Assembly: GCF_000518985.1 (NCBI RefSeq)
Contig: NZ_JAEQ01000013.1
Location: forward strand, 62,001-126,000
Direction: 5' to 3'
DNA from: Chelativorans sp. J32
GTDB taxonomy: Bacteria > Pseudomonadota > Alphaproteobacteria > Rhizobiales > Rhizobiaceae
Length of the DNA stretch: 64,000 nt
Shown here: positions 57,683 through 64,000 of the stretch, piece after piece
How positions within the stretch are numbered: position 1 is the stretch's first letter
How the letters are laid out: the number at the start of each line of letters is the position of its first letter
Translations under genes and position numbers: made by a program
The notes under the pieces: model-generated
Seen by the model: the letters and a program-made list of their open reading frames with translations, nothing else
Databases searched by the model: none
Told to the model about the DNA's origin: nothing

Positions 57683-57854
57683 TTCCACCTTCACCGGGGT
57701 GGAAAGCTACTCTCTCCCGACGCGCTCAGTCGGGGATCTGTTCATGGACCTTGCCGCTTCCACTCAGCCTGATGGTCGACAATGGGCTGCCACCGCGAAA
57801 AGGCCGGCCCGGCGAAGCCGCCCAGGTGGGGACGTAACTACCGGTGATAACCGG
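57683..57854 (+). promoter_or_regulatory. Structured 5' leader of the large exported protein
   Basis: Several hairpins follow one another in the 180 bases before the start codon at 57862: TTCCACC/GGTGGAA (57683-57689 with 57698-57704), CCCGAC/GTCGGG (57716-57721 with 57729-57734), CCACC/GGTGG (57790-57794 with 57825-57829) enclosing CGGC-gaa-GCCG (57810-57820), and CCGG-tgataa-CCGG (57841-57854), whose end is eight bases before the ATG. I recognise no riboswitch family. The remainder of 57072-57861 contains the two repeats and no credible gene. Confidence 0.45.
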
Positions 57855-57861
57855 AAAAAAT

Positions 57862-60800
57862 ATGAAATCTAAGGTGATGAAAGTGCTTCTTCCACGCCTT
57901 TCGATTCTCGCATATCTGGCTATCTTCATTCTTTGCCTGAGTTTGCCGGCAAACGCTCAAAGTGGTTCATGTTCGATAGCAAACTTGACGCCGCTCCTTA
58001 GTAGTTCGTCATCACGATACGCAGCGGCAAACAACAATACTTTGGTTGAAGTAACTGAAGCAGAATTTCGCAATGTGCAGGCGCTGTTAAACTCAGCGCG
58101 GTTTGTCGGCTGGGATCCAGATACGATACCCTCCACTCACGACTTTGCTGGTGAGTATGTTGAAGTTCTCGATGAGAGCCCTGCGATCGTTCCGGCGAAT
58201 AAGGTGCTCGTGGGGTTTTTCCTAGATGTCAGCGGAGTGCCAAATCAGATTTCGCCGCGCATCGGGACACCATCCGGAACCGGTATGACCGTTCGGCTCT
58301 CCTGGCCCGATGCATCCGTTAGCACGGTGGGTGAAAAGTGGTTCGTTATAAAGAATCCGACGGGCTCCATCAGTACTGATGGATATCTGGGGCTTCATCG
58401 CACAAATGCGGTGAGAGGATGGAAGTCGGGAGTAAATGGCCTGTATGTCTTCGATCTCGGTAACCCAGCTTTCGTCTCCAGCCGGTGCAATTGCGGACAA
58501 TTTCGAGTCTTCGGCATCTATGCCGACCGGGATGCCCTTTGTAACATAGCCTCGGAAGTGGCAGTAACGAAAACTCTGGTTGGGGAAAGCACCGCCCGGA
58601 ACAATGTTGCGGAGCCGGCCGAGGAACTGACTTATGAGGTAAGGATCACGCACAAGGGCGGTGGTCCGTTCAGCGATTTCGATTTCGTGGAGAATATTCC
58701 GGACGGTACGACGCTGACGGCAGTGACCGGAGCGAGTGGTTTCACGGGGCCAGTAAGAGGGCCCGCGGCGGTCAATCTGCGCGTCGCTCAGGTGCCGGTC
58801 GGAGGAACTGTCACCGTCACCATCAAGTTGGAGACGATCGCGAACTTTCCGGCCAGCATATCCTCGATAACGAATCGCGTTGGTGGTGGCGACGTGCCAG
58901 CCGATTGCAGCCAGTGTTCCGTCACCATTCCGACTCCAACTCGCGTACCGACCTCTCCGCCGACACTTTCCTGCTCCTCCTCCGGTAATTTCCTGAACAC
59001 CGCCTATGATGGCAATGGCGGGCGGCTGACATCCGGAACGGATTCCCATTGGGGAGTCGCCATGACCTCATCGAACGTTACGGGCCAGCCACCCCCCAAT
59101 CTGAACTACACCGCCGCCACCGTTTACACCGGCACCTTCTTACAAGCCCCGGTCGGTCCCGCAGGCTGGATTACGCACAATGCTGGTGGCGGACATGTCG
59201 GGAGCGTCGATGTGTTCTATCGCTATCAATTCAATCTCGATGGGGCGGTTGATCCGAGAAATCTGGCTCTCAACATGCGTTTCAATGCGGACAACGCCGT
59301 CTACGAGGTCTGGGTCAACGGCGTGGCGCAGGGGATCCGCTCCGGGTTCGGCAGCGGTGATCCGTATCAATATATCGGCTTCGATCTTGCCAATCCTGCC
59401 AGTGGCACCATGCAGGGGGCATGGCAGACGGGCCTCAACACGATCATCGTCCATGTCAAGTCGAGCCCCGGCACCGAAGCGTTCCTGGCCTATATCACGA
59501 CCACCGCGATCTGCCTTCCAAAGCTGACGCTGCGCAAGGACGTGGTCAACGACAATGGAGGGACGATAGCGGAAAGCGCCTTCACGCTGCGGGCCGCAGG
59601 GCCGGCCACCATCCAGGGCGTGATGGGGACTCCTGCCATCACCAATGCGACGGTGCCGATCGGCACCTATGCGCTGAGCGAGACCGGACCCGCCGGCTAT
59701 AGCGGTTCGCAATATGCCTGCTCGGTAGACGGGCGGGCGAGTGTCCTTGGCAATACGATCACGCTCGCCAATGGGCAGAACGCCGTCTGCACTATCACCA
59801 ATGACGATATCGCGCCGCGGCTCACCCTGGTGGCGCAGGTGATCAACGACAATGGCGGCTCGGCGGTGCCCGGCGATGTCGGGCTGAGTGCGACGGGGCC
59901 GACGCCCATCTCCGGCCCGAGCGGGAGCGCTCGGGTGACGAATGCCGCGGTCAATGCCGGCAGCTATACGCTCGATGTCACCGCACCTCCCAATTACGAG
60001 GCTGGCGATTACAGCTGCATGATCAATGGCGGTGCGCCGGTCGCCGGCAACAGCATCACCCTTTCGCTGGCCGATATCGCCGTCTGCACCGTCACGGTGG
60101 AAGACATGAACCCCATGGTCACCATTGCGAAGGTGAGCGTCGGCGGGGTTGGGCGGTTCGGCTTTGCCGGCGCGGCGGCGAATGCCAATGGCTTTCCGAT
60201 CGATGGCAGCTATGAGGTGGAGACGATCACGCCGGGAGTGGCCGTTGAGGGAGCATCGGTGCCGCTTGCCGCCGCCGATGTGGAGACCCGGATCGTCGAG
60301 GCCATTCCGGCGGGCTGGGTTCTGGAGAGCGCCCGCTGCGAGGACCGAAGGGCGGCGGCGACCGGCAATCCCGCCGGCCAAGTGATCGGCACGGTCAGCG
60401 ACGGCAAGACGCTCGTCATCCCGGCCGGGAACGCCAGGGCCGGTGCCGATCTCCTCTGCACCTTCACCAACCGTTTCCGCGGCTTTGCCGTCGAGGGGCG
60501 GGTGATCCTCGACAATGGCGCGGGCGGCGGCATGGCGCATAACCGCATCCAGGACGGGGCGGAAGAGGGCCAAGGCACTGTCCTTCTGCGCCTCACCGAT
60601 TGCGCCGGCAGCGAATATGCGAGGGGCGAGAGCGACGGGGCGGGCAATTTCTCGCTCAGCCTTGCGAAAGCGCCCGTTGGTACGCCGGTCTGCCTCGAGC
60701 GTGGCGAGATCGCCGGCCATCTTCCGGTCAGCCTCCATCCAGGCGATACCGGCGGTGCCTCGCCAGAGGCCGATAAGTACGAGGCACTGCGCTTCACCCC

Positions 60801-61581
60801 GGCGGCGGAGACCAATCATCAGGGCGTCGTCTTCGGCCTGATCGTCCGGCCGCGGCTTGCCACCGACAGCCGCGCCGTCGTGGCGCCGGGCGGTGCCGCC
60901 CTCCTGCCGCACCGCTACACAGCGACGACGACGGCCAGCGTCCTCTTCGCGCTCACCGGCGTAACCGGAACACCCGATGCGGCGCTGTTCTCCACCACCA
61001 TCTACCGTGATGCGGATTGTTCCGGCAGCATCGATGCCGGAGACTGGCCGGTGTCCGCGCCCATCGCCGTTGCCGCCGGGGACGTGATCTGCCTCTTTGT
61101 GCGGGTGCAGGCAAGCGTGGTCGCGCCCGAAGGCGGCACACTTGATTATATGCTGTCGGCCACCACGGCCCTTTCCGGCACCTCGGCCTCCCTCTCGCCG
61201 GCCATCAACCGCGATACCGTCTCCGTCGGGACCGGAACCGTTGCGGTCACGAGAAGGGTGCGAAATGTGACGCAAGCGGGTTCTTATGGGGTGACGGCCC
61301 TCGGGGCCCCAGGCGACGTGCTGGAATATTCGGTCATCTTCATCAACCCGTCAGCCTCGTCGGTGAGCGGCGTCAGGGTGCATGACGAGACGCCGGACTA
61401 CACGACCCTCGACGCCCCGATCAAGGTGAAGGAGAACCCCACCGGGCTCGACTGCCAGCCGGCCCTGCCGACGGCTAGCGCAGCAGTCGATTACAAGGGG
61501 CCGCTGCGCTGGGACTGCACCGGCACCATGTCACCCGGCGCCAAGGGAGAGGTCTCCTTCAAGGTCAAAATCGATCACTGA
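57862..61581 (+). CDS. Large exported multidomain protein (DUF11-, prealbumin- and SdrD_B-like modules)
   Basis: 1,239 residues. Signal peptide at 1-35 (SLPANA-Q), then an unassigned Cys-containing region to about 230, a DUF11-like domain at about 233-360 (VAVTKTLVGEST...), a jelly-roll-like domain at about 365-553 (WITHNAGGGHVGSVDVFYRY), three prealbumin/SpaA-like modules at about 555-652, 654-752 and 754-875 each ending in CTITN, CTVTV or CTFTN, an SdrD_B-like module at about 873-990, and a final DUF11-like domain at about 1128-1239. No LPxTG, PEP-CTERM or autotransporter domain was seen, so the surface-attachment route is unknown. The first 800 bp are near 43 percent GC while the rest is high-GC. 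The ATG at 57862 begins the signal peptide; a GTG at 57844 is in frame. Confidence 0.82.
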   Translation: MKSKVMKVLLPRLSILAYLAIFILCLSLPANAQSGSCSIANLTPLLSSSSSRYAAANNNTLVEVTEAEFRNVQALLNSARFVGWDPDTIPSTHDFAGEYVEVLDESPAIVPANKVLVGFFLDVSGVPNQISPRIGTPSGTGMTVRLSWPDASVSTVGEKWFVIKNPTGSISTDGYLGLHRTNAVRGWKSGVNGLYVFDLGNPAFVSSRCNCGQFRVFGIYADRDALCNIASEVAVTKTLVGESTARNNVAEPAEELTYEVRITHKGGGPFSDFDFVENIPDGTTLTAVTGASGFTGPVRGPAAVNLRVAQVPVGGTVTVTIKLETIANFPASISSITNRVGGGDVPADCSQCSVTIPTPTRVPTSPPTLSCSSSGNFLNTAYDGNGGRLTSGTDSHWGVAMTSSNVTGQPPPNLNYTAATVYTGTFLQAPVGPAGWITHNAGGGHVGSVDVFYRYQFNLDGAVDPRNLALNMRFNADNAVYEVWVNGVAQGIRSGFGSGDPYQYIGFDLANPASGTMQGAWQTGLNTIIVHVKSSPGTEAFLAYITTTAICLPKLTLRKDVVNDNGGTIAESAFTLRAAGPATIQGVMGTPAITNATVPIGTYALSETGPAGYSGSQYACSVDGRASVLGNTITLANGQNAVCTITNDDIAPRLTLVAQVINDNGGSAVPGDVGLSATGPTPISGPSGSARVTNAAVNAGSYTLDVTAPPNYEAGDYSCMINGGAPVAGNSITLSLADIAVCTVTVEDMNPMVTIAKVSVGGVGRFGFAGAAANANGFPIDGSYEVETITPGVAVEGASVPLAAADVETRIVEAIPAGWVLESARCEDRRAAATGNPAGQVIGTVSDGKTLVIPAGNARAGADLLCTFTNRFRGFAVEGRVILDNGAGGGMAHNRIQDGAEEGQGTVLLRLTDCAGSEYARGESDGAGNFSLSLAKAPVGTPVCLERGEIAGHLPVSLHPGDTGGASPEADKYEALRFTPAAETNHQGVVFGLIVRPRLATDSRAVVAPGGAALLPHRYTATTTASVLFALTGVTGTPDAALFSTTIYRDADCSGSIDAGDWPVSAPIAVAAGDVICLFVRVQASVVAPEGGTLDYMLSATTALSGTSASLSPAINRDTVSVGTGTVAVTRRVRNVTQAGSYGVTALGAPGDVLEYSVIFINPSASSVSGVRVHDETPDYTTLDAPIKVKENPTGLDCQPALPTASAAVDYKGPLRWDCTGTMSPGAKGEVSFKVKIDH

Positions 61582-61811
61582 GAACGGGCCGTAGGCCGAG
61601 CGCAATCCTCGGCTAAGCTGGCCGCCGAGCCTGCCGGCCGGCGTAACCGCAGGCTATCTTGCGATCCAAGCGCCGAACGCCGATTCAGGGTCAAAGTCGA
61701 GGAGCAGGACCAGAAAACGCTTTCATCAAAGACTTATTTTACTTTCAGAATGCGCGGGGGCTACTGTTTTCATCTTCGGCCTGATTTGCCGCACCGATCC
61801 TGGAGCCCTTC
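61582..61811 (+). other. Intergenic region between the two large exported-protein genes
   Basis: 230 bp without a gene. Two hairpins follow the stop: GCCGAG-cgcaatc-CTCGGC at 61595-61613 and AGCCTGC/GCAGGCT at 61628-61634 with 61649-61655, the second enclosing a CCGGCCGG palindrome. Neither has a T run, so factor-independent termination is doubtful. The last 90 bases become AT-rich and may hold a promoter for the next gene. Confidence 0.5.
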
Positions 61812-63224
61812 ATGCGCACACCCGCCCGGCTACAACATTTCGTTTCCGTGCGCTTGCGGTATTTTTTTGCAATGGCAATAGCAGTTCTACTGCTCGTGGG
61901 GATGAGCGTACCGGCGCGAGCGCTAACGCCATTCACCTGCGATTCTACGCTCTATATGAGAGTTGGAAATGGTTCGACTATCAACTTTGGCTATCTTGTT
62001 TTCGAGGGGGGGACATATACAATGAATGTTGTAAGGACTACCAGCGGCATAAACTTTACTGATATTGCATATAATCCTTTAGACAATTACATCTATGCCT
62101 TAGACACCGATACTAAGGAGCTATATAGATTTGGAGTTGGGTTTGAATACGTCAATCTCGGGAGAGTGAGCGGGGTTGCGCTTGATAATTGGACCGGTGC
62201 TCAATCATTTGCTCCCGATGGTTTTCTGTACATTACGAATGGAGGTAGGCGGACTAATCCCCCCAATTTAGGCATTCATTCTTTGTACAAGGTTAATATT
62301 TCAAATCTTACAGCGACTGAAATTCCTCTTAGTAGCAGGGCTAAGTCAGCCTCCGAACTGGCCTGGTACAATGGTCGCTTTTATCTCGCCGATCCTGACA
62401 ATGAAATAGGAACATATACTATAACGACTACTGGGCAGGTGCAAACCATTGGCCCTAATGATTTGCGGCTTATGCCGCTTGCCGGATGGGGCGGCACAAA
62501 TGGTGTTTGGTTTTTCCAGCTAGGTCGCCGTTTGGGCTACGGCCTGGTGATTTTTTCTATCGATGTAAACACTGGGGCGCCTACAATGGTTGTCGCGGGG
62601 AACTTCGAGGTTGGGGACAATTGGGGAAGTGCCAATTGCATACTTGCGCCTCTCCCCGACGTGAAGACGGGCGCTCGCATACGTTTTGCGAAGACGACTG
62701 TACCGGGAGGTGTAAATCAGAACTTCGCCGTCAGTGGCACGAATGGCTTGTCGCAAGTGACGATCAATTCCACGACGGGTCTGAGCGATTATCAGGAGCT
62801 GACCGACGTGAAGGTAGACACGACGTTTACCGAGCAGGGTGTGGCGGGCTGGCGGGGACAGCGCCTCGTCTGTGTGGCCGAGACCAGCAATGGTGGCGTG
62901 GTGCGGGGAAGCACCGTCTATAGCAATCTCACGCCGGGCACGGCGGGCGCGAGCTACACATCGGTCGCGCCGGCCAATACCTTTGTGGCCGGCAACGATT
63001 ACACCTGCACATTCACCAATGACCGGACGCGGATCAATTTTGCGAAGGTTACGCGACCGGCCAATGCCAACCAGTCCTTCACGGTCACGGGAACGAACGG
63101 CATCGGCCAGGTCATGATCAATGCGGCGGGCCAGCGCGCAACGCACGAGATGGCCATGCCGCGCCAGCGCGGCACCGCCGCCTCGGTAATGGTGGTGGCG
63201 GCGGCAACGTTCGCCACCGGCTGA
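61812..63224 (+). CDS. Exported repeat protein, interrupted by an in-frame TGA
   Basis: 470 residues to the stop. A signal peptide with a long basic lead (hydrophobic core MAIAVLLLVGMSV, cleavage after ARA near 37) is followed by a region to about 285 with propeller-like patterns (FTDIAYNPLDNYIYALD, LAWYNGRFYLAD) resembling DUF6923-type domains of bacterial surface proteins, then tandem repeats from about residue 288. Repeat 1 is complete; repeat 2 breaks off after GQVMINA, then runs into unrelated residues encoded by an inverted repeat fragment, and ends at TGA 63222-63224. The same frame reopens at once with more repeats. The head is 35-40 percent GC, the repeats about 55-60. Either truncated by rearrangement or the unexpressed or alternate state of a longer protein. 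Confidence 0.72.
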   Translation: MRTPARLQHFVSVRLRYFFAMAIAVLLLVGMSVPARALTPFTCDSTLYMRVGNGSTINFGYLVFEGGTYTMNVVRTTSGINFTDIAYNPLDNYIYALDTDTKELYRFGVGFEYVNLGRVSGVALDNWTGAQSFAPDGFLYITNGGRRTNPPNLGIHSLYKVNISNLTATEIPLSSRAKSASELAWYNGRFYLADPDNEIGTYTITTTGQVQTIGPNDLRLMPLAGWGGTNGVWFFQLGRRLGYGLVIFSIDVNTGAPTMVVAGNFEVGDNWGSANCILAPLPDVKTGARIRFAKTTVPGGVNQNFAVSGTNGLSQVTINSTTGLSDYQELTDVKVDTTFTEQGVAGWRGQRLVCVAETSNGGVVRGSTVYSNLTPGTAGASYTSVAPANTFVAGNDYTCTFTNDRTRINFAKVTRPANANQSFTVTGTNGIGQVMINAAGQRATHEMAMPRQRGTAASVMVVAAATFATG

Positions 63225-63239
63225 AAGGCACTCGGCTTC
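63126..63239 (-). repeat. Inverted repeat-unit fragment within repeat 2
   Basis: Read on the reverse strand the segment encodes KPSAFQPVANVAAATTITEA followed by AVPRWRGMAISCVA, which matches the centre of the forward repeats (for example TPSAYRPLTNVEAETVLSEG then AVPGWRGVELRCVA in repeat 3). In forward orientation it adds about 38 foreign codons plus the TGA. Removing it would rejoin MINA to the TRGNPTAYQ of repeat 2. A 14-bp exact inverted match, GCTGGCGCGGCATG, links it (63155-63168) to the forward copy at 63325-63338. Confidence 0.85.
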
Positions 63240-64000
63240 AACGCCACCAGGGGGAACCCCACTGCCTACCAGACTCTCACCGATACGACGGCCGACACGA
63301 CCTTCGTGGAGCTTGCGGTTTTAGGCTGGCGCGGCATGAGCATGAAGTGCATGGCCATGACGGGGGTCGGCGAGGAACAGCAGGACAAGGAGGTCTATAC
63401 GAATCCGGACCTGGGCACGGGCGGGAGCAATTACATTTCCCGCGTGCCGGCCAACACGTTCAAGCCGGGCAACGACTATACCTGCACCTTCACCAATGCG
63501 CGCACGCGGGTGCAGCTTGGCAAGAAGACGGTGACGCCCGACATCAACCGGAACTTCACGGTCAATGCCACGGCGAGCAACGGGATCACCAGCACCGTCA
63601 TCAATGCCGTCGGCATGACCCCCAGCGCCTATCGGCCGCTGACCAATGTGGAGGCCGAGACCGTTTTGAGCGAGGGGGCGGTCCCGGGCTGGCGCGGCGT
63701 GGAGCTGCGCTGCGTCGCCCAGACAGCGGTCAATAACGAGACGCAGGATAAAGTCGTCTTCGGCCCCACGGCAGTAGGCACGATCGGTGCTGACTATACG
63801 CACAGGCTGCCCGCCGGCACCTTCAAGGACGGCAATGATTATATCTGCACCTTCACCAATGAGGCGGCGCGCATCCGCTACGAGAAAGAGACGCTTCCGC
63901 CCAAATTCGACCGAGACTTCACGATGAATGCGGTGAACGGCCTGCTGCAGACCGTGATCAATGCGACCACCGGCTACAGCGCCTATGGCGTGCTGAGCAA
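63225..64000 (+). pseudogene. Continuation of the repeat protein after the TGA, open to window end
   Basis: In the same frame as the upstream gene, 258 codons follow the TGA without a stop. From 63240 they restore the rest of repeat 2 (NATRGNPTAYQTLTD ... GNDYTCTFTN), all of repeat 3 and the start of repeat 4. No start codon with a ribosome-binding site is visible near 63225, so on its own this part would probably not be translated. Extent beyond base 64000 is unknown. Confidence 0.65.

Follow-up and report, generated by a model that had tools for sequence, protein, structure and literature searches.

A gene for a predicted secreted repeat protein in Chelativorans sp. J32 carries, inside its tandem domain array, part of one repeat unit in inverted orientation, and this inverted part places a stop codon in the reading frame. 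As far as sequence comparison reaches, we confirmed that the inverted fragment is real, and we consider it a true, readable rearrangement, most likely fixed, that truncates the predicted protein. The window analyzed is 64,000 nt long and corresponds to bases 62001-126000 of contig C5 (127,800 bases) in a draft assembly of 45 contigs. The array gene starts at position 61812 of the window and is cut off by the end of the contig.

The truncated reading frame (61812-63224, forward strand) encodes 470 aa followed by TGA. It comprises an N-terminal hydrophobic segment that by eye resembles an export signal, a DUF6923 domain (PF21959), the first repeat unit and the first third of the second. Downstream of DUF6923, the sequence continues as tandem domains of ~118 residues each, several of them with matches to SpaA_4 (PF24514, prealbumin-like fold), at 36.1 bits before the stop and 52.7 and 160.5 bits after it (Pfam cut-off 27.3 bits). 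We laid out six units in the array gene, four of which lie inside or reach into the window: unit 1, an intact SpaA_4 unit of 345 bp (62676-63020), the disturbed unit 2 (63021-63497, 477 bp), the intact unit 3 (63498-63860) and the start of unit 4 (63861-64000), all on the forward strand. The remainder of unit 4, units 5 and 6 and the C-terminal part lie outside the window, and beyond the six units there is one more SpaA_4 match followed by C-terminal sequence. Units 4 and 5 look by eye like a duplicated pair, made of a unit-4-like start and unit-2/3-like sequence. Two cysteines per unit (alignment columns 72 and 117) are invariant in nine undisturbed units and may form a disulfide in each domain. 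SpaA_4 domains also occur in further very long frames of the same genome (C11:96442-96786 and C15:76223-77827, in frames of 2714 and 2781 codons).

Within unit 2, the inverted block most likely occupies positions 63137-63236 on the reverse strand (~100 bp, with several bases' play at the limits) and corresponds to the middle of a unit (family positions 40-71). An earlier note, made from the letters of the window, had read 63126-63239 on the reverse strand as the middle of the repeat family; that reading holds, with the limits now refined. When the whole genome was searched with unit 3, the reverse strand of 63131-63253 matched the family with an E value of 6.3e-8 (46% over 41 aa). A profile of the nine undisturbed units gave a minus-strand match at 63134-63238 (E 3.1e-7), and the independent Pfam model PF24514 gave a match with an E value of 0.0014 and 19.8 bits, which is under the curated cut-off of 27.3 bits. 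The gap-free alignable core (63140-63232) is identical to unit 3 at 63/93 nt, whereas ungapped placement at every position along either strand of the array gives on average 25.7 identities (sd 5.1); left unturned, the block agrees with the ten units compared at 27-35/93 nt. Chance antisense similarity was rejected on the basis of the unit 3 and profile E values and of this excess in identity.

Once turned, the block is identical to the ten units at 43-63/93 nt, which is similar to the range among the units themselves (43-71/93), suggesting that it differs from them as much as a unit of its own would. It is nearest to its own unit 3, followed by units 1 (61/93) and 2 (60/93) of the homologous array in Chelativorans multitrophicus DSM 9103 (hereafter G008), a member of the same genus; this ranking names no parent of the block. 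We found no near-identical forward copy of the block in the genome assembly, the best match being the 63/93 nt of unit 3, and this is what would be expected if the fragment had been moved rather than copied. That the block is a recent copy of the middle of its own unit, made by fold-back, was rejected, as the block agrees with the right-hand middle at 55/93 nt, no closer than with other units.

The TGA lies at 63222-63224 on the forward strand (codon 471), arises from a TTTCAG of the block read on the wrong strand and is the only in-frame stop from 61812 to the contig end. Because the antisense reading of the block puts this TGA in frame, the expected product has 470 residues, comprising the N-terminal domain and a single complete repeat but lacking the other repeats and the C-terminal part; such a truncated product may still be made. 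From 63225, the frame is open again on the forward strand to the end of the window at 64000 and on to the end of contig C5. The earlier note had described at least 258 codons of repeat in the same frame after the stop, and we found that the repeat frame indeed resumes in phase, for 258 codons in the window and for 858 codons to the contig end (window-equivalent 65800). The other two forward frames over the same stretch contain 36 and 19 stops, and the probability of 858 open codons from base composition alone is ~8e-11. The disturbed unit 2, at 477 bp, stands apart from the other five units (345-363 bp); its counterpart in G008 measures 354 bp, and the difference of 123 bp is a multiple of three, as had been noted for the insert.

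In G008, the homologous array forms one intact frame of 1513 codons with four units, no stop and no inverted piece. Relative to this frame, the J32 gene shows at codon 471 the kind of break by which pseudogenes are recognized. The N-terminal part of the G008 frame differs, so this frame is homologous to the J32 array but not to the gene as a whole. The DNA identity between the two is ~70%, and G008 is therefore too distant for dating the event.

Further decay after the break was looked for up to the contig end and was not found. In addition to the 858 open codons, dN/dS against G008 (NG86) is 0.39-0.57 after the stop (unit 3, 0.57; unit 6, 0.39; C-terminal part, 0.39 over 286 codons) and 0.25 in unit 1 before it, compared to 0.34 in the C-terminal part of the neighboring intact paralog that served as a selection control (57844-61581, forward strand, 1245 aa, SpaA_2 and SpaA_4). 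Constraint after the stop thus resembles that of the intact paralog, though it is not uniform, as the value for unit 3 indicates. Maximum-likelihood estimates differ from these (unit 1, 0.14; unit 3, 0.32; unit 6, 0.10; C-terminal part, 0.10; paralog, 0.13). As dN/dS averages over the whole time since the species split, these values show no more than that the region downstream of the stop has not gone unconstrained for long, and this, together with the lack of a second stop, points to a recent rearrangement.

Relatives of the array are sparse among the genomes we sampled. The 858-aa part after the stop has matches in 4/16 genomes of the genus, of which J32 and G008 carry the array and two others (G007 and G011) match more weakly. 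The unit profile matches 1/297 sampled genomes of the family, this one, with G008 evidently outside that draw. PF24514 matches 5/385 sampled genomes of the class; 12 matches fall in J32, and the remaining four genomes have a single match each. At the threshold used, the inverted block itself is absent from these matches. A search of genome contigs with a single protein and a search of viral contigs with an alignment returned no locus, and a second scan of genome contigs returned one locus, that of C. multitrophicus. The best-ranked papers of one open-access library included none that deals with the Chelativorans gene family or describes a comparable fragment.

The anatomy of the junction bears on how the fragment came to lie there. 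Against the profile of nine undisturbed units, the broken unit is tiled by a left remnant at family positions 1-36 (63021-63136, forward strand, ending INAAGQR), the inverted block at 40-71 and a right remnant at 34-118 (63237-63497, forward strand, starting FNATRGN, with a diverged INA repeated). An inverted, locally homologous stretch between forward fragments, in this order, is the pattern of a template switch or of end joining. Left flank and turned block joined flush score 86.1 bits, compared to 45.5 and 34.6 bits apart. The joined score is 89.2 bits with one residue fewer, 83.4 with three fewer and 83.0 with three more, and it falls below the sum of the separate scores when at least five residues are removed or at least six are added (each spacer being one random draw). 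At the chosen limits, the spacing between left flank and block is that of unit 3 (INA, five residues, SA). The block has an INA motif on either side, and the two versions agree in 9/20 aligned bases, a divergence that makes the flanks look like two different units rather than a fresh duplication.

A fixed local rearrangement, in one of two forms, is in our view highly probable. This agrees with the earlier note, which had listed a fixed rearrangement involving copying or deletion among its readings; the G008 array is intact, and the anatomy fits either an inversion with deletion or an inverted insertion. To the first form, in which a piece was inverted and the loss of ~240 bp next to it fused two units, we give roughly even chances; it is in our view somewhat more likely than the pasting of an inverted copy into a single unit. 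A flip in place of an otherwise normal unit was rejected, since the turned state holds two middles, in keeping with the note's remark that such a flip restores no full ordinary unit.

The second form, possible but somewhat less probable, holds that an inverted copy of ~100-123 bp of another unit entered a complete unit 2 during replication or repair and that the donor has since changed or been lost. Both flanks are nearest to one and the same C. multitrophicus unit, unit 2 (first part of the left flank, 48/66 nt; right flank, 169/258 nt), which fits insertion into a single unit; trimmed to one INA, they form a good complete unit of 157.2 bits, compared to 44.1 and 106.8 bits apart. The excess of unit 2 over its G008 counterpart is about the size of the inverted piece, and the number of units in the array varies within the genus (6 here, 4 in G008). 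As the left-right fit gains as much as the left-block fit, the tiling alone does not decide between the forms. Speaking against the inverted copy, no donor was found at better than 63/93 nt, the INA is doubled yet diverged, unlike a fresh duplication at an insertion point, and it would have to be coincidence that left flank and turned block join flush. The suggestion in the earlier note that a neighboring unit was copied backwards therefore stands as a live rival, but no present unit is the donor.

Under the inversion with deletion, the J32 gene would record a single, non-programmed local rearrangement within a tandem array of secreted SpaA_4-type domains. The ancestral array would have had one more unit. 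Two neighbors would have been fused through the loss of ~240 bp, and ~100 bp of the central part of the first would have stayed at the join, turned around. Possible routes are template switching at a replication fork and end joining after the array had broken, each of which could give rise to either form; end joining is probably available to this organism, given two Ku matches over the cut-off in its genome. The piece, now read on the wrong strand, would then supply the in-frame TGA. We infer that the block came from the very unit that was deleted, and likewise the loss of sequence, its extent, the route of repair and an event that is both recent and fixed. An ancestral array with one more unit was found in none of the genomes searched.

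An error of assembly, or a chimeric read joined across repeats, would produce the fragment with no rearrangement in the cell, and we regard this as improbable. The assembly is a draft, the contig ends inside this very gene, and its last 141 bases are common to a second contig. Against such an error, the block is unique, with no near-identical copy at which a wrong joining could have occurred, the contig end is ~2.6 kb away, and no stop interrupts the repeat frame on either side of the block. The assembly error considered in the earlier note is accordingly not favored, given that the assembly holds no near-identical forward copy of the fragment.

The contig ends of this genome touch the gene family at several points. 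The shared 141 bases are L009:10661-10801 at the end of C5 and L053:6153-6293 at the end of C6, and the starts of C18 and C19 (L066 and L029, positions 1-470) have their first 470 bases, which code for the C-terminal part, in common. The 3′ part of the array gene thus appears to be present at two loci. On C6, a leader that by eye resembles an export signal runs straight into the C-terminal domain, without any repeats in between. G008 likewise has a second locus at a contig end whose 3′ end is 95.1% identical over 792 bp (L069, C4 end; L028, C8), and the 3′ ends of the family may therefore be homogenized between loci in both species. In G008, one such gene lies between an M29 peptidase gene and the counterparts of the genes at L029:10249-11951. 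Synteny suggests that C5 joins C19; if it does, window positions 57844-64000 and L029 (C19) together hold four paralogs in a row.

Intragenic inversions can introduce stops, and invertons, including intragenic ones, were reportedly described by Chanin et al. in 2024. We consider a programmed, reversible inversion inside the gene, toggling a short and a long surface protein, very improbable. The gene is of a surface type, and for 741/930 tested pairs of limits the frame would be open throughout if the block were turned where it lies; this happens simply because the only stop lies inside the block, and the opened unit would contain two middles. The 14-bp inverted match proposed in the earlier note as a recombination site does exist (left arm 63155-63168, forward strand, part of the family motif GWRGM; right arm 63325-63338, reverse strand). 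It is explained by homology, as it sits in the GWRGM stretch common to most units, and recombination at this match was rejected because the resulting flip leaves a stop in the frame.

Other arms fare no better. No arms framing the block were found between 63100-63160 and 63205-63275 for lengths of 8-20 nt, with no mismatch allowed below 10 nt, one below 13 nt and two from 13 nt. Around the TGA within 62500-64700, 0/7 exact arm pairs of at least 10 nt, the 14-bp pair included, would open the frame when flipped, and the same holds for 0/4 imperfect arm pairs from the repeat search. The genome has four resolvase-family and seven integrase-family matches over the Pfam cut-off. The search for these two families found none within ~38 kb on the contig; the one match on the contig lies ~38 kb away and has a size that we take to be usual for XerC/D. 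Eight genes at 49.6-57.1 kb, scanned against Pfam, included one HNH endonuclease and no recombinase. With no such block in the relative G008 either, a reversible switch is not supported, nor is the switch at the 14-bp match suggested by the earlier note. We give an even smaller chance to a recombinase-independent intragenic switch, in which inverted partial units would toggle a short and a long secreted protein through template switching at the fork or illegitimate recombination; if it were true, the downstream frame would stay intact because the long form recurs.

The kind of event that we describe is already known. What the J32 gene offers is a clear case of breakage in a tandem-domain gene, in which an inverted unit fragment at an array junction is the sole source of the stop. 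Such a case suggests that bacterial arrays of secreted domains are reshaped not by slippage alone but also by local inversions accompanied by deletion or copying. Were both orientations to occur, this would be a new type of switch; no finding here points to one.

Compared to SpaA_4 as modeled by PF24514, the array units reach the Pfam cut-off, and the inverted piece is only a weak match under it; the Chelativorans units, ~118 residues long, also have conserved motifs of their own. The multiple-banded antigen of Ureaplasma has repeats. Inversion at specific inverted repeats alternates the expression of the neighboring genes in the Ureaplasma MBA/UU172 system, as shown on the DNA and protein levels (PMC3047005). 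Both cases involve a DNA inversion that affects surface-protein genes, in Ureaplasma those of proteins related to the multiple-banded antigen; unlike there, the J32 fragment lies inside one repeat, and we found no sites and saw no second state (PMC3047005). Invertons are flanked by inverted repeats of 10-40 nt and flipped by an invertase (PMC11892184), and they include intragenic ones (PMC11892184, PMC11868660). The J32 block resembles the latter as an inverted stretch within a gene (PMC11892184, PMC11868660) and differs from the general description there in that no framing repeats were found and the candidate arms leave the frame closed (PMC11892184). Closer in form are short-range template-switch mutations, for which the four-point model of Loytynoja and Goldman has a short stretch of the opposite strand copied between two switch points; such events were described in great ape genomes with the help of close relatives (PMC7954356). 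As in that model, three ordered fragments (left, inverted and right) suffice to describe the J32 event (PMC7954356). Unlike the great ape cases, it was compared only with a relative of ~70% identity, its inverted stretch is ~100 bp long, and its return point seemingly lies about one repeat unit further on (PMC7954356).
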